64,000 bases of DNA from assembly GCA_028284265.1 (NCBI GenBank), contig JANQRZ010000003.1, forward strand, positions 62,001 to 126,000, in the 5' to 3' direction. The notes beneath the pieces were generated by a model, which was not told the DNA's origin, made no database searches, and saw nothing but the letters and a program-made list of their open reading frames with translations. Below are positions 16,979-37,180 of this stretch, in pieces. How positions within the stretch are numbered: the first letter of the stretch is position 1; every line of letters begins with the position of its first letter. The position numbers and the translations under genes are program-made. This stretch comes from Rhodothermales bacterium. Lineage in GTDB: Bacteria > Bacteroidota > Rhodothermia > Rhodothermales > JANQRZ01.

Positions 16979-19186
16979 ATGCTGAATAGAACACTGAGGA
17001 TATGTCATATTGCGCGGCTTTTGCCAATTGTTTTTCTTGTATTGATTTTCTTCGTATCGAAAAACGCAGTTGGACAAACAACGCTTCCAGAATACTTGTT
17101 CGATGATTTTGATTATGGCGCGAGTGCTGGAGATGATCTACTAGGAGCTAGAGCGACCTCAAATACTTGCGACCTCAGCAGCAGCCCGCTACTTAGAGAG
17201 AGCGAGTGGCGTATCAAAACCGGGTCTACAGCGTTTGACTCTACGATGAGGATGTGGTACTTGGACTCTTGGTTTGATGGTAAAGCTAGCCTCCCCATAT
17301 CTAACCCGCCGGACGGGGGGGCAGCGGGGGTAGTTAAGTTCGTAGATAGCCTCGACGTGCCGACAGGGTATAGCAACTATACGACAGATACCACGTCAGG
17401 CATACGCATTTTCCTTTCTCCGGGCGAGTATCCAACCACGCAAAATTGGGCGACGAGAATTTTGTCAGGCTTTACTGCCGAATACGGGACGTGGGCAGCG
17501 CGAGTTAAATTCGTGGATATTCATACATTCAATCCATCGAATCCGTCCAACGAGCCACGCACCCATCACGGATTCTGGTTACAGTCTGAAAATAGCACAG
17601 GGTCCAACCCAAATGAACCCGAATCTACTAGGTCAGGGAGGTGGGATGAGTTAGATCACGAGTTCAGCAACTGGTTCGGCACCTACGATACGGGCACCGA
17701 AACAATACCTGGCCTTGCCACGGGCATTTATCCTAACGCCAATACATTGAGTGGGAGTCCCGGTTTCGGCAATGCACATGTAGGTATGACGGCTCCGTAT
17801 GCAGACTACCAACCTCCGGGCGGCTGCGACGAAAGCGTTGAAGACTGCCGGTCATGTTTTCTCTCCTACTACGATGGGATTGATGCATCTTCCGAGCTAA
17901 ATCCTGCTAGAGGACAGATCATACCTGAGGATAGCACACTCTCCTACCCTCTATGTCTCGATTATTTTCTCGGAGAGGGCACGGGACAAGTTGACAAATA
18001 TGCATACTTGTGGATTCGCTCCACCCCTGAGGAGGTATCATTCAGGATTGTTATTTACTTTGAGGCTCAAGGGGGACATCCTCATGCAGGGCAGGTAACG
18101 GCCATGAGAGCGTATACAAGAAACCCGCAGAGCTGGAACAACGAGGTCAATGTGTCTGGTGAACCACCATACAAGTTTAAGGGTATGCCGTCGCGTCCTT
18201 TGTCAGTAAAGTTTAGCAATACGCTAGCAGCGGGGGTAGATAGTTCTTTTGAATTTATTGACCTAGGTAGTCCTCTAAACTTTGATATTGATTGGGTTTA
18301 CTATACACCAGAGTATGATCCCCAGGTAGTGTCTCTAGGTGTGATAAAGGATGATGTTAACACTATTAAATCTTCTGCTATTGACGATGTGAATAGGGAG
18401 TTGAGAGTCTCTTTACCACTTAGCAATAGTGCTTTTAATTCGGTCAATTTCACGCTTACCCCAGAGGAGTACGATTTCGATCCCAGTACCATGTACAACT
18501 GCATGGAACTGAAGAACGATTCCATCTTCCCAATCTCAATAGAGAAGGTGGATTCTAATGTCCATGCACCTAATACAGATAGTAGGTACGTATGGGAATT
18601 AGACCTTCCCTTGGAAAGGGGAGGGTTTTTGGTAAAGTGGAACGTATACAAGAGGCTCTTCAGTGGCGGTGCGTGGAAGCCTGCGCTCTCGGACTCGACA
18701 TCAGGAGCCGTGCTAGTCACTGGCGGTGACGCTAGCTATCCTCATGGTATCTTAGTCAAGGCTACTGTTCAGGCAACGATACCAGACAAGTTTGTTACTT
18801 CGAGTGATAGTATTGCTGGGTATACATATCCAGTGAGTGACACGACGTCTTACTTTCCTAATGCATCTAGGATTCAGGATCAGGGCAAGGGTGGGTCGTC
18901 AAGTGGCTATGTCACAGAGATGCAGATCTTCCCGACGATTGCTGCATCTGACGCAACGATCGCACTGGCGCTGGCTACATCAAGCGATATCGTCCTCCGA
19001 GCTTATGATGTCCTAGGACGCCGGGTCATCGACCAAAGCCACGCGGGCCTAGCGTTGGGAGAACACGACTTACAACTCAATGTGAGCGCGCTTGCCAGCG
19101 GAGTGTACTTCGTAAATGTTGATATCAAGCCCTTGGAGAATGGGCAGGCCACAACGCTTAGGCGGCGGGTGGTCGTTGTGAGGTAG
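16979..19186 (+). CDS. GH16-like secreted protein with T9SS type A sorting domain
   Basis: 735 residues: signal peptide (LLPIVFLVLIFFVSKNAVG), a concanavalin-like region, then a C-terminal sorting domain. The first part matches the family 16 glycoside hydrolase layout: EYGTWAARVKFVD, a HHGFWLQ strand, then WDELDHEF, whose Glu224, Asp226 and Glu228 fit the ExDxE catalytic motif, and a closing FDIDWVYYTPEY strand. Residues from about 655 (MQIFPTIAASDATIALALA, YDVLGRRVID, ASGVYFVNVD, RRVVVVR) form a type A T9SS signal. Codons such as AGA, AGG and ATA and low GC (25 of 60 in 18301-18360) contrast with neighbours. GH16 is inferred from motifs; the substrate, perhaps a beta-glucan or galactan, is unknown. 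Confidence 0.8.
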   Translation: MLNRTLRICHIARLLPIVFLVLIFFVSKNAVGQTTLPEYLFDDFDYGASAGDDLLGARATSNTCDLSSSPLLRESEWRIKTGSTAFDSTMRMWYLDSWFDGKASLPISNPPDGGAAGVVKFVDSLDVPTGYSNYTTDTTSGIRIFLSPGEYPTTQNWATRILSGFTAEYGTWAARVKFVDIHTFNPSNPSNEPRTHHGFWLQSENSTGSNPNEPESTRSGRWDELDHEFSNWFGTYDTGTETIPGLATGIYPNANTLSGSPGFGNAHVGMTAPYADYQPPGGCDESVEDCRSCFLSYYDGIDASSELNPARGQIIPEDSTLSYPLCLDYFLGEGTGQVDKYAYLWIRSTPEEVSFRIVIYFEAQGGHPHAGQVTAMRAYTRNPQSWNNEVNVSGEPPYKFKGMPSRPLSVKFSNTLAAGVDSSFEFIDLGSPLNFDIDWVYYTPEYDPQVVSLGVIKDDVNTIKSSAIDDVNRELRVSLPLSNSAFNSVNFTLTPEEYDFDPSTMYNCMELKNDSIFPISIEKVDSNVHAPNTDSRYVWELDLPLERGGFLVKWNVYKRLFSGGAWKPALSDSTSGAVLVTGGDASYPHGILVKATVQATIPDKFVTSSDSIAGYTYPVSDTTSYFPNASRIQDQGKGGSSSGYVTEMQIFPTIAASDATIALALATSSDIVLRAYDVLGRRVIDQSHAGLALGEHDLQLNVSALASGVYFVNVDIKPLENGQATTLRRRVVVVR

Positions 19187-32075: not shown

Positions 32076-33440
32076 ATGCGCTCGCTCGCCTTCCTGCTTC
32101 TCCTCATTGCCGCCCCCCTCGTCGCCCAGCCTGCGCTCGACATCGAGCCGTACCGCGTTGCCGCCGACCGCATCATCGAAGCCGCCCTCGCCGACAGCGC
32201 GGCCTTCGAGCGACTCGCCGAGATGGTGGACGCCTACCCCCGCCGCCTCAGCGGCAGTGTGATGCTGGAGGAATCCATCGACTGGATGCTCGCCGAAATG
32301 AGCGCCGATGGGTTCGAGAACGTGCGCGGTGAGGAGGTGATGGTGCCGCACTGGGTGCGCGGCGAGGAGTCGGTGACGCTCATCGAGCCTCGGCGGGAGG
32401 AACTGGCGATGCTTGGGATTGGCAACAGCGTCGGGACGCCGCCGGAGGGGATCACTGCCGAGGTGCTGGTCGTCGGTTCGTTCGAGGAACTGGAGGCGCG
32501 GCGGACCGAGGCTGAGGGCAAGATCGTCCTGTTCAACGTGCCGTTCACGACCTACGGCGAGACCGTGCAATACCGCACCCGAGGCGCGAACGAGGCGGCA
32601 CGCTACGGAGCCGTCGCGTCGATGCTGCGCTCGGTCGGGCCGGTCTCGCTCCAGACGCCCCACACGGGGATGCTCCGCTATGAGGAAGGCCTAGCGCAGA
32701 TTCCCCACGCTGCGCTCACCATCGAGGGGGCTGAATTTCTACAGCGTCTCGCTGACCGGGGCGAGCGAATCGTGGTCACGCTCAAGATGGAAGCTCAGAT
32801 GTTACCCGATGCCGTCAGTCGCAACGCCATCGGCGAACTGGTCGGGCGCGAACACCCTGACGAGATCGTCGTCATCGGCGGGCACATCGACTCGTGGGAC
32901 GTGGGGCAGGGCGCGATGGACGATGCGGGCGGCGTGGTGGTGACGTGGGAGGCGGTGCGGCTGCTGAAAGCGCTAGGGTTACGGCCCCGGCGGACGATCC
33001 GCGTCGTCGGCTGGACCAACGAGGAGAACGGCTTGGCGGGCGGCAACGCCTACCGCGATGCCTACGCCGACGACCTCGACAACCACATCCTCGCCGCCGA
33101 GATCGACGGTGGTGTGTTCGCCCCACTCGGTCTCGGCGTGACGGCGAGTGACGCCGCGTTCGCGCTCGTCGAACCCATCGGCGAGTTGATGCGGCCCGTG
33201 CTGGAAGAGGGTGCCCCCGGCATCACGCGTGGCGGCGGGGGGGCCGACATCGGCCCGCTGATGCGCGAGGGCGTCCCCGGTGCAGGCTTCCGCGTCGTCG
33301 GCGACACCTATTTCTGGTATCACCACACAGAGGCGGACACGCTCGACAAGCTCGACGCCAACGAGGTGCAGCGGTGCGTGGCGGCGATGGCGATCTTCGC
33401 CTACGTCGTCGCCGAGATGCCGGAGCGCCTGCCGCGCTGA
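32076..33440 (+). CDS. Secreted M28 family zinc metallopeptidase with PA domain
   Basis: 454 residues. Signal peptide [18 protein letters not shown]; a protease-associated (PA) insert around residues 120-215 ([34 protein letters not shown]); then the M28 dizinc peptidase core: [19 protein letters not shown] (His and Asp ligands, about 268-286), [16 protein letters not shown] (catalytic Glu-Glu), a later AEIDGG Asp, and the final His ligand in [16 protein letters not shown]. The full ligand set looks intact, so it is predicted active as an aminopeptidase or carboxypeptidase outside the cytoplasm. Two PA-domain/T9SS genes follow on the same strand. Confidence 0.95.
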
Positions 33441-33547: not shown

Positions 33548-35158
33548 ATGACCCTTCGCTACTGTTACCTCATACTTCTCTTCTTCGCTCCGGCGCTTGT
33601 CCTCGCGCAGGACAGCGTCAACGTCGTCATCGGTGATGTGGTCGCTGGTGGGTGGGAAGCCAACTTCGGTGCCCAATTCACCTTCGGCGAAGACATCGGG
33701 CCGCTGCCGCTGGTCCCGGTCGAAGGCGACGGCACCACCGCGCCTCCCGATCAGGGCTGCGATCCGCTCGTCAACGGCGACGAGATCGAAGGCAACATCG
33801 CCTGGATCTCGCGCGGCTCGTGTGCCTTCGTCCTGAAGGTGCAGAACGCTGCCGCGGCCGGGGCTGTAGCCGTCCTCGTGCATAACGACGAACGCAACCC
33901 GGATGACTTCCCGATCTTCATTCCACCCGGTTTCTGCACGGAAGACGGTGAGCCGCCGGAAGGTGGCTGTTCTGCCCCCGCCGCGTTCGTCACCTACCAG
34001 AGCCACCTCGCCATCGAGGCGGAGATGAAGCTCGGCGAACTCGCTACGATCTCCTGTCCGCTAGAGGACCGATGTCTCGTGCCGCCAGAGCCGCCGGCAG
34101 CCGCAGACATCACGAGTAGCACGGTAGCCTCGACGATCTTTGCAGACGGCTTCATCGGCAAGGACTTCTCCTTCGGCAACGGGCAGGGCTTCGCCTTCAA
34201 CGGCGAGCAGGGGCTTTTCGTCAGCACGTTGCTCGTTAGTATCGGCGGCGACGTGACGGGAAATCCGTATGACGGTGCCTCCGAATACGAAGAGGGAACC
34301 GCTGCTCCGTTGTCGGCTCCGTTCCCGGCTCCGTTTACTACTGCCGAGGCGGGTGCTCAGACGACGTTCTCGTCTGACAACGTGGATGTCACGCTGTCGG
34401 GCTATGGGTATGATGGTTTCGTCATCTACGATGTGAAGGTCACCAACGCCTCTGGTGGTTCGCTCGATGACGTGTACCTCGGCCTCTTCGCCGACTTCGA
34501 CGCAGGCACGACGACCTCGGTCGACGACAACGCGGGTTTCAACGAGAACCTCAACCTCGCCTACGTCTACGACCCGGTGGAGGCGGCTCCGTATTTCGGT
34601 GTTCTGAGCTTGGGCGACGAAGACGTATCCGGCTATAGCCTCGACGCGACGACGGCGGACGATGCCCAACTGTTCGATGTACTGACGACGGCGAATCCGC
34701 CTGCTTCCGATCCGGCGGAGCGAGCGGCTGTCGTCGGCGTCGGGCCGTACGACGTGGCCGCTGGGAAGATGATGACGGTGCGCTTCGCGCTCGTGGCCGG
34801 GGAGGACGAGGCGGACCTGTTCGAGAATGCGATGCTCGCGAAGCTCAGTGCCGGTTGCGGGATTTGCCCTTCGGTCGAGAAGACGACAGAGGCCGGTCGG
34901 TTCGTGCTGGAGACACCGTACCCGAACCCTGCCGAGCAGCGGGCGACCGTGCGCTTTATCCTGCCCGAGGCCGCAGCGGTGCAAGTGGTGGTCTACGACG
35001 TGCTCGGGCGCGAGGTGACTGTGCTCGCCGAGGGTGTCCGTCTGGCAGGCGAGCAGGCGGTGACGCTCGACACGGCGGGCCTGCCGAGCGGGGTCTACGT
35101 CGTGCGCCTCGACGCTGGAGTCGTCCAACTCACGCAGCGGCTTACGATCATTCGATAA
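33548..35158 (+). CDS. Secreted PA-domain protein with T9SS type A sorting domain (paralogue 1)
   Basis: 536 residues. Signal peptide ([15 protein letters not shown]), then a protease-associated domain: [54 protein letters not shown] central beta-rich region has paired motifs [17 protein letters not shown] and [16 protein letters not shown]. The final 75 residues are a complete type A sorting domain ([53 protein letters not shown]). It is predicted to be cell-surface or secreted. A PA domain without a peptidase domain suggests a binding role. The next gene, 11 bases downstream, is a close paralogue. Confidence 0.92.
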
Positions 35159-35169
35159 CGGAGTGCTTT

Positions 35170-36657
35170 ATGAAGCGGATTCGCTACCTCGCATTTCTCT
35201 TAGCTCTTGTTCCGACGCTTGTTCTCGCGCAGGACAGTCTTATCGTCGTCATCGATGGCGCTGAGTACGGTGCTTGGGAGGCCAACTTCGGTGCCCAGTT
35301 CGATGAAGACAGTGATATTGGCCCGCTCCCGCTGATTGCGGTCGTAAGCGACGGCACTACCGCGCCTGCTGACCAAGGCTGCGACCCGCTTGTCAATGGC
35401 GACGATGTCAAAGGCAACATCGCGTGGATCGCGCGTGGGTCGTGCGCCTTCGTCGTGAAGGTGCAGAACGCTGTCGCTGCCGGTGCTGTGGCCGTCCTCG
35501 TCCACAACGACGACCGTAACGAGCCGCCGGAGGACTTCTCGCTCGTCTTCATGGGCGGTGACTGCACGGTAGACGGTGAACCGCCGGACGGTGGCTGCTC
35601 CATTCCGGCAGCCTTTGTCTCGTACCGCAGCCACCTCGCCATCGAGACTCCGCTCGAGTTCGGAGATGAAGCCACGATCGAATGTGTCGTGTGCACCACG
35701 CCGCCGCCGCCGCCGATTCCTGCCAACATCATCGGCAGCACGGTGGCCTCGACGATCTACTCGGACGGCTTCATCGGCAACTCCTTCGGCAACGGCCTCG
35801 GTTTCACCTTCTACGGTGAACAGGGGCTGTTCATCGGCACCGTCCTCGTCGGGATCGACGGTGAGGTGATGGGGAATCCGTATGATGGAGCCTCCGAGTT
35901 TGAACACGGAGATGCTATCCAATTCACGCCTCCGTTCCCGGCTCCGTTCGGCAGTGCTGAGGCGGGTGCTCAGGCGATGTTCTCGTCTGATGAGGTAGCC
36001 ATCACGCTGTCGGGCTATGCGTACGATGCTGCTATCGTCTATGACATGAACGTCGCCAACATCTCCGGTGGCGATCTCGATGACGTGTACCTCGGCCTCT
36101 TTGCCGACTTCGATACAGGCACGAACGCTACGAATGATGACGATGCTGGCTTCAGTAAATTCCAGAACTTGGTCTATGTCTACGACGAAGCTGAGGGGTC
36201 TGCGTACTTCGGGATCGCATCGCTCACCGAGGACCTCTCGGGCTATAGCACCGACGCGACGACAGCCGACGACGCCGAACTGTTCGAGGCGATGACGACA
36301 GAGATCGAACCCGAAGATGATCCTGCGGAGCGTGCCGCGGTCATCGGTGTTGGGCCGTTTGACATAGCCGCCGGTGAAACGAAGATTGTCCGGTTTGCTA
36401 TGGTAGCTGGTGTCGATGAACTAGACATCATCGCCAACACACAAGGGCTTATCTGCGTCAGTTGTCCCCCCAGCGTCGAGGGCGAGACCCCGGAAGGCAC
36501 CTACGTGCTGGAGTCCGTCTACCCGAACCCGCTCTCGTCGGAGACGACGGTTGGGTTCACGCTGCCAGTTGCGCAGTCGGTGCGGGTGGCGGTCTACGTC
36601 GTGCGGTTGGAGGCGGGCACTATCCAACTCACGCAGAGGATCACGGTGATTCGGTAG
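35170..36657 (+). CDS. Secreted PA-domain protein with internally deleted T9SS sorting domain (paralogue 2)
   Basis: 495 residues, the same architecture as the preceding gene: signal peptide (LAFLLALVPTLVLAQ), PA domain ([40 protein letters not shown]), central beta region with SGYAYDAAIVYDMNVAN and [16 protein letters not shown]. The sorting domain begins normally (VYPNPLSSETTVGFTLP, VRVAVY) but jumps straight to VVRLEAGTIQLTQRITVIR. The 34 residues between VY and VVRL in paralogue 1 are missing, in frame. Whether the remainder still directs T9SS export is uncertain. The tandem arrangement and shared motifs point to local duplication. Confidence 0.92.
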   Translation: MKRIRYLAFLLALVPTLVLAQDSLIVVIDGAEYGAWEANFGAQFDEDSDIGPLPLIAVVSDGTTAPADQGCDPLVNGDDVKGNIAWIARGSCAFVVKVQNAVAAGAVAVLVHNDDRNEPPEDFSLVFMGGDCTVDGEPPDGGCSIPAAFVSYRSHLAIETPLEFGDEATIECVVCTTPPPPPIPANIIGSTVASTIYSDGFIGNSFGNGLGFTFYGEQGLFIGTVLVGIDGEVMGNPYDGASEFEHGDAIQFTPPFPAPFGSAEAGAQAMFSSDEVAITLSGYAYDAAIVYDMNVANISGGDLDDVYLGLFADFDTGTNATNDDDAGFSKFQNLVYVYDEAEGSAYFGIASLTEDLSGYSTDATTADDAELFEAMTTEIEPEDDPAERAAVIGVGPFDIAAGETKIVRFAMVAGVDELDIIANTQGLICVSCPPSVEGETPEGTYVLESVYPNPLSSETTVGFTLPVAQSVRVAVYVVRLEAGTIQLTQRITVIR

Positions 36658-36676: not shown

Positions 36677-37180
36677 ATGTGCCGCCGACTCCTTCCCGTC
36701 CTCCTCTTCGCTCTTCTCTTCGCCGCCTGCCAGCGCGAGGCCGACCGGGTACGTCCCGACGAACCCGCTCCCGCCGCTGACACACTCGCTGCCGATTCCT
36801 CACAGGCTGTCGCCATCGACACGACCGAGGTTGCGCCGCTCGAACAGGACCCGGCGAAGCTCGCCGCGCTCAACACGGCGCTCGACACGCTCGAAGCCTT
36901 CATCGTGGTGCTCGAACGGGTCGAGGGGCCGATCAATGCGTGGAACCAAGCGGCGGAGGCCGCCCGGCTGCTGCGCTACCTCGAACGGAACCAAGCGGCG
37001 TTCATGATGGAGGAGCCGGAAGCAGAGGCTGCCCGTCGCTACCCGGAACAGGTTGCCCGGCTGAACCGGTTGGAGGCGCGCCGCGAGACCGAGTTGAAGC
37101 GGATCGGCGAGGACCGGATTGCGGCGCAGGTGCTCGTCGAGGAGATGGCGAAGGCAGACGCCGAAGCGGCAGGCCGCTAA
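36677..37180 (+). CDS. Small alpha-helical lipoprotein
   Basis: 167 residues. Signal with lipobox MCRRLLPVLLFALLFAAC (Cys18), an acidic Ser/Thr/Ala-rich linker to about residue 55, then charged helix (LAALNTALDTLEAFIVVLE, RLLRYLERNQAAF, RLEARRETELKRIGEDRI) likely to form a coiled coil. No family recognised. It follows the PA/T9SS tandem by 19 bases and ends 7 bases from a convergent small membrane protein gene. Confidence 0.75.
   Translation: MCRRLLPVLLFALLFAACQREADRVRPDEPAPAADTLAADSSQAVAIDTTEVAPLEQDPAKLAALNTALDTLEAFIVVLERVEGPINAWNQAAEAARLLRYLERNQAAFMMEEPEAEAARRYPEQVARLNRLEARRETELKRIGEDRIAAQVLVEEMAKADAEAAGR

Follow-up and report, generated by a model that had tools for sequence, protein, structure and literature searches.

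The window analysed here, a 64,000-base stretch of a Rhodothermales genome, carries two adjacent paralogous genes on its forward strand. Paralogue 1 (P1; 33548..35158, +) encodes 536 aa comprising a PA domain, a middle domain and an intact type A T9SS C-terminal sorting domain, and paralogue 2 (P2; 35170..36657, +) encodes 495 aa with the same architecture and a sorting domain shorter by 34 residues. The genes lie in tandem, P2 starting 11 bases beyond the end of P1. A Sec-type signal peptide is recognizable by eye at the N-terminus of both proteins, and Pfam detects the PA domain in P1 (4.2e-14) as well as in P2 (3.6e-15). The two share 63% amino acid identity, with differences spread along the whole length, and a third paralogue of the same genome (P3; contig 8) is 68% identical to P2. 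In a phylogenetic tree P2 grouped with P3 (81% with the protein body only, 64% at full length), too weakly to name the tandem-duplicate pair.

The upstream gene (32076..33440, +), which we take to be an M28-type peptidase, is 74–75% identical to its copy in the same-family genome G002; the peptidase-like gene had no match in the same-genus genome G001, the G002 copy being found at 75% identity. Between the same upstream and downstream neighbours, G002 encodes a single intact homologue (B4) at the matching place, and the downstream small gene of our locus (36677..37180, +), which has a lipoprotein-like start by eye, has a homologue 3' of B4 at 53% identity. G001 encodes one full-length homologue, also intact. 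Separately, G002 holds short relatives (L055, G002:C24:212000-216500, and L059, G002:C16:97500-101000) in which the PA domain is joined directly to the sorting domain and the middle domain is missing; two of these short relatives lie in tandem.

A repeat-bounded, in-frame excision in P2

The sorting domain of P1 contains a 14-nt direct repeat whose copies differ by one mismatch and lie 102 bases apart, start to start. Copy 1 (34990-35003, +; GGTCTACGACGTGC) encodes the VYDV of strand 3, and copy 2 (35092-35105, +; GGTCTACGTCGTGC) encodes the VYVV of strand 6. P2 holds a single fused repeat (36591-36604, +; GGTCTACGTCGTGC) at which strand 3 runs into strand 6, and this is the deletion junction. 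Exact matching thus bore out the first-pass annotation in describing 14-mers 102 bases apart in P1 and one copy in P2; its position for copy 2 was right, and those for copy 1 and the P2 copy were each one base off. The three sites are the only matches to the 14-mer in the 64,000 bases even when one mismatch is allowed, compared with means of 0.00 exact and 0.09 one-mismatch matches in shuffled sequence.

Alignment with seven homologues showed P2 to be short of 34 C-terminal-domain columns. With P1 as a stand-in for the P2 ancestor, the removed segment is bounded by direct repeats of which one copy remains in P2, and the 102-base P1 stretch that has no P2 counterpart is 34990..35091 (+), its exact ends being ambiguous within the repeat. 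Across all 239 offsets in the C-terminal 258 nt of P1, no offset has a longer repeat than the 14 nt found at offset 102 when up to one mismatch is tolerated, and offset 102 also holds the only frame-keeping exact repeat of at least 8 nt; exact repeats that would shift the frame occur in the same 258 nt at offsets 152 (10 nt) and 161 (8 nt). The distance from the strand 3 VY to the strand 6 VY is 34 codons in each of the seven homologues examined, and the P2 ancestor therefore very probably had the same spacing. The two repeat sites match each other less well in P3 than in P1. The full sorting domain is intact in P3, in one same-genus homologue and in four same-family homologues, so that the earlier description of an in-frame, repeat-bounded loss confined to one paralogue holds against P3 and five full-length relatives. 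The excision in P2 is real, well bounded and in frame, and affects one gene of one organism.

The direct repeats stem from the protein itself: VYxV occurs in strand 3 and again in strand 6, written each time in similar codons. The excision is in frame because the two repeats are exactly 34 codons apart. We asked how general this resemblance is by comparing, in the aligned sorting domains of the same genome, all pairs of 7-codon segments separated by 14 codons or more. Among 2,015 segment pairs in 161 intact domains, the strand 3/strand 6 pair ranked second and its one-codon shift first, with mean longest identical runs of 3.98 nt and 3.99 nt, respectively, against 2.30 nt (sd 0.36) for all pairs. 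P1 has the joint longest strand 3/6 run (8 nt, shared with four others) and, at 15/21, the highest identity among the rows listed. Most of these runs are short and just 5 of the 161 domains reach 8 nt, which argues for a mild bias and no strong hotspot.

We sampled 162 type A domain frames from 102 stretches of the genome, a sample built on full-domain matches that a very divergent short form could escape. For 161 of them the length offset ran from -2 to +8 residues; for P2 it was -34. The 102 stretches came mostly from a full-domain search (best 150 matches), together with P2 and 14 places returned by a short-form query (best 150 of 219 candidates). Outside its own genome, no sequence in 148 genomes was more than 51% identical to P2 over its length, and scans of genome contigs and viral sequences returned no close relative. 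Querying 244 class genomes with the P2 tag (best 26 candidates each) gave no whole-query match other than P2 itself. A short-form profile of 13 rows, run against 394 phylum and 238 class genomes with the best 17 or fewer (phylum) and 28 or fewer (class) candidates per genome, matched over the whole query only in P2 among the roughly 150 best rows listed; the partial matches examined, in six genomes (G021, G167, G220, G071, G002 and G008), were all intact domains. Recurrence of the 34-codon excision beyond P2 is thus not shown by these sequences, and our literature searches turned up no account of T9SS tags being lost through repeats. As an observation on the genome as a whole, at least 150 of its type A sorting domains exceed the Pfam cut-off, so that its set of T9SS cargo is very large for a genome of 3.7 Mb.

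Sorting-domain anatomy and predicted consequences for export

The P1 sorting-domain segment (34871..35155, +; 95 aa) matches Por_Secre_tail (PF18962; 5.3e-10) and TIGR04183 (1.7e-10), both above the curated cut-off, and is predicted to form a seven-stranded Ig-like sandwich. An AlphaFold2 model built on an alignment with four other domains of the window has a mean pLDDT of 86.6 and places the seven strands at residues 12-14, 24-31, 35-42, 48-57, 60-67, 74-82 and 85-93. Foldseek put this model among Ig-like folds, with weak hits, not the top ones, to the T9SS tags of mirolase (8qb1; 5.1e-3) and RemA (8gl6_D; 9.3e-3). The shortened P2 segment (36472..36654, +; 61 aa) matched neither PF18962 nor TIGR04183 at E values up to 1. 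Its model has a mean pLDDT of 52.7 and no predicted sandwich, which is weak evidence given a shallow six-row alignment with a long gap. Elsewhere in the window, a sorting-domain-like C-terminus (18905-19183, +) lacks the usual YPNP entry motif.

Compared with the type A sorting domain (TIGR04183/PF18962), P2 shares the YPNP entry, strands 1-2, the start of strand 3, strands 6-7 and motif E, and lacks the strand 3-4 loop that bears motif B, strands 4 and 5 and the turn leading into strand 6. The motif D glycine is gone too, as are the matches to both models. Strand 6 now continues directly from strand 3 and begins with alanine where the intact domain has glycine, so that motif D reads AVY and not GxY. 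In 161 of 161 intact domains of the genome (163 alignment rows, P2 being present twice) motifs B and D both have their glycine; P2 has neither. Motif E, the last strand, is present with its basic residue (TQRITVIR, against TQRLTIIR in P1), and exactly 22 residues remain after the junction, carrying motif D (as AxY) and motif E. The first-pass annotation had proposed that the YPNP motif and the C-terminal strand were kept, as they are. Its list of lost strands, VLGREV and LPSGVY, is partly wrong: strands 4 and 5 are gone, but the LPSGVY strand, strand 6, survives fused to strand 3 without its leading glycine.

The genome encodes SprA (7.0e-80) and a 1413-aa frame with a PorU-like C25 peptidase (5.5e-102), and type IX export is therefore expected to be in use. 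Published work on other type A tags bears on the export of P2. The structure of the translocon shows the tag with nearly 40% of its surface buried against PorV and SprA (PMC10994853). RgpB of Porphyromonas gingivalis is no longer secreted when its strand 3-4 loop is deleted or replaced (PMC11285876); the CTD mutants concerned (692-702 deletion and 695-701:GG) have lost the same loop as P2, and P2 additionally lacks strands 4 and 5. In Prevotella intermedia, natural short CTDs of 43-55 aa retain the counterparts of strands 3, 6 and 7, and with them motifs B, D and E (PMC11969387). These tags are shortened to a length similar to that of P2, but they drop the other sheet and hold motif B, whereas P2 keeps strands 1-2 and, with motif B missing, falls outside the definition of a P. 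intermedia-type short CTD.

Taken together, the sequence, the models and these analogies suggest that P2 has most likely lost normal type IX export. Our preferred account, which we think probable though well short of assured, is a slip deletion between the strand 3 and strand 6 repeats in P2, with predicted loss of the fold and loss of normal type A docking. P1 and P2 are tandem copies of a Sec-exported protein built from PA, middle and type A sorting domains. Replication slippage or single-strand annealing between the short direct repeats would have removed 102 bases in frame from inside P2, joining strand 3 to strand 6 at the cost of strands 4-5, motif B and the glycine of motif D. The excision, its single occurrence in the sample, the repeat bias and the predicted loss of fold are results of the analysis; the fate of the protein is inferred from them. 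P2 would still cross the inner membrane, but its tag would no longer dock with SprA/PorV in the manner of a normal type A tag, and the protein would mostly stay periplasmic or be degraded.

The main rival, conceivable though unlikely, is that the short tag still exports P2, strands 6-7 with motifs D and E being sufficient and the lost part dispensable in this lineage. For HBP35, the C-terminal 22 residues were reported as the minimal region that carries GFP to the surface (PMC3120885; also PMC4804311), and that region, like the 22 residues left in P2, consists of the last two strands with motifs D and E. All 20 positions that are invariant among the homologues are moreover present in the P2 remnant. 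The HBP35 construct, however, is an engineered fusion in another species, and in P2 the motif reads AxY in place of GxY and is preceded by the fused strand 3. Further against a working short tag, RgpB needs motif B (PMC11285876), and the short tags that occur naturally in P. intermedia have kept it (PMC11969387). The motif D glycine of all 161 intact domains is alanine in P2, and no other such form appeared among the sampled domains or the class and phylum matches listed.

Mutational route and evolutionary state of P2

Deletion by slipped mispairing between short direct repeats is a textbook mechanism that leaves one repeat copy behind. The P2 junction resembles it in having a 14-nt imperfect repeat 102 bases apart of which one copy is left, and differs in that the repeat is made by two strands of one domain, so that the reading frame is kept. 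Slippage or annealing between repeats within P2 is the simplest route, a mechanism read from the length of the repeat.

A second route, improbable in our view but a live alternative, is that P1 served as template for a rewriting of the P2 3' end, the exchange entering at the P1 strand 6 repeat from the P2 strand 3 repeat, with the same effect on the protein. Informative sites are positions that distinguish P1 from P3. Past the junction P2 agrees with P1 at 13 of 17 of them, compared with 135 of 308 upstream (Fisher p = 0.011); upstream within the sorting domain, 13 of 37 are P1-like (Fisher p = 0.008). Slippage inside P2 does not predict these P1-like 3' sites. The tract would nevertheless be at most about 70 bases long, the signal is weak in that 8 of 309 windows with the same number of sites also reach 13 and the p values carry no correction for multiple looks, and the flank after P2 is unlike that of P1 by eye. 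The switch from P3-like to P1-like sites at the junction hints at short-tract exchange between the tandem copies. Of the original proposal of recombination between the repeats, the repeat-bounded deletion stands; recombination as the sole route does not, slippage or a P1-templated patch fitting as well or nearly so.

Neither P2 nor its tag remnant shows any sign of decay. By the NG86 method, the P2-P3 pair had a dN of 0.232 and a dS of 0.922, and the P1-P3 pair a dN of 0.238 and a dS of 0.902, giving a pairwise dN/dS for P2-P3 of about 0.25, like that of P1-P3; the kept part of the P2 tag retains 20 of the 20 positions that are invariant in seven other homologues. In light of both results, neither the gene nor the remnant looks decayed. 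With dS at about 0.9, a rough hand estimate is that free drift since the split would have changed well over half of the 20 invariant positions. As none has changed, either the P2 deletion came long after the split or constraint still acts on the remnant, and the two fit the intact remnant equally well.

A further reading is that the deletion was retained because it keeps P2 periplasmic, as a purposeful division of labour after tandem duplication. The gene and remnant are intact and appear to be under constraint, the signal peptide of P2 is intact by eye, and the adjoining P1 keeps a normal tag. We nonetheless consider such purposeful retention doubtful: an intact remnant is just as expected from a young deletion, and no short-form orthologue of P2 was found in 148 genomes. 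An assembly or read artefact is very unlikely even for a 24-contig assembly, because a 14-nt repeat with one mismatch is far below the usual read or k-mer length and cannot be collapsed by usual assemblers, and P2 keeps its frame and differs from P1 throughout.

Significance of the P2 excision

A bolder interpretation than the slip deletion with loss of docking would make P2 a functional, selected type A signal, minimal or re-aimed, that does without motif B and combines strands 1-2 and strand 7 with a strand 3/6 hybrid, and is either exported or held in the periplasm on purpose. Type A tags would then generally have a built-in, in-frame strand 3/6 repeat through which one mutation could switch a cargo from exported to retained. 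We give this perhaps a one-in-several chance of being correct; if it were, and P2 were exported, motifs D and E would suffice in nature. Under the favoured reading of a slip deletion, the mechanism is ordinary and the effect is probably loss of the signal.

For the biology of this organism, the excision is a small private mutation. For the family of type A tags, P2 shows a route to an exact 34-codon in-frame loss, namely two strands of one fold encoded in similar DNA. The published needs of these tags disagree, one report pointing to the last 22 residues in HBP35 (PMC3120885) and another to the motif B loop in RgpB (PMC11285876), which the natural short tags of P. intermedia also have (PMC11969387). 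P2, with 22 residues and without motif B, stands beside P1 with its full tag, and the two form a natural pair of moderate use for testing what a type A signal requires.
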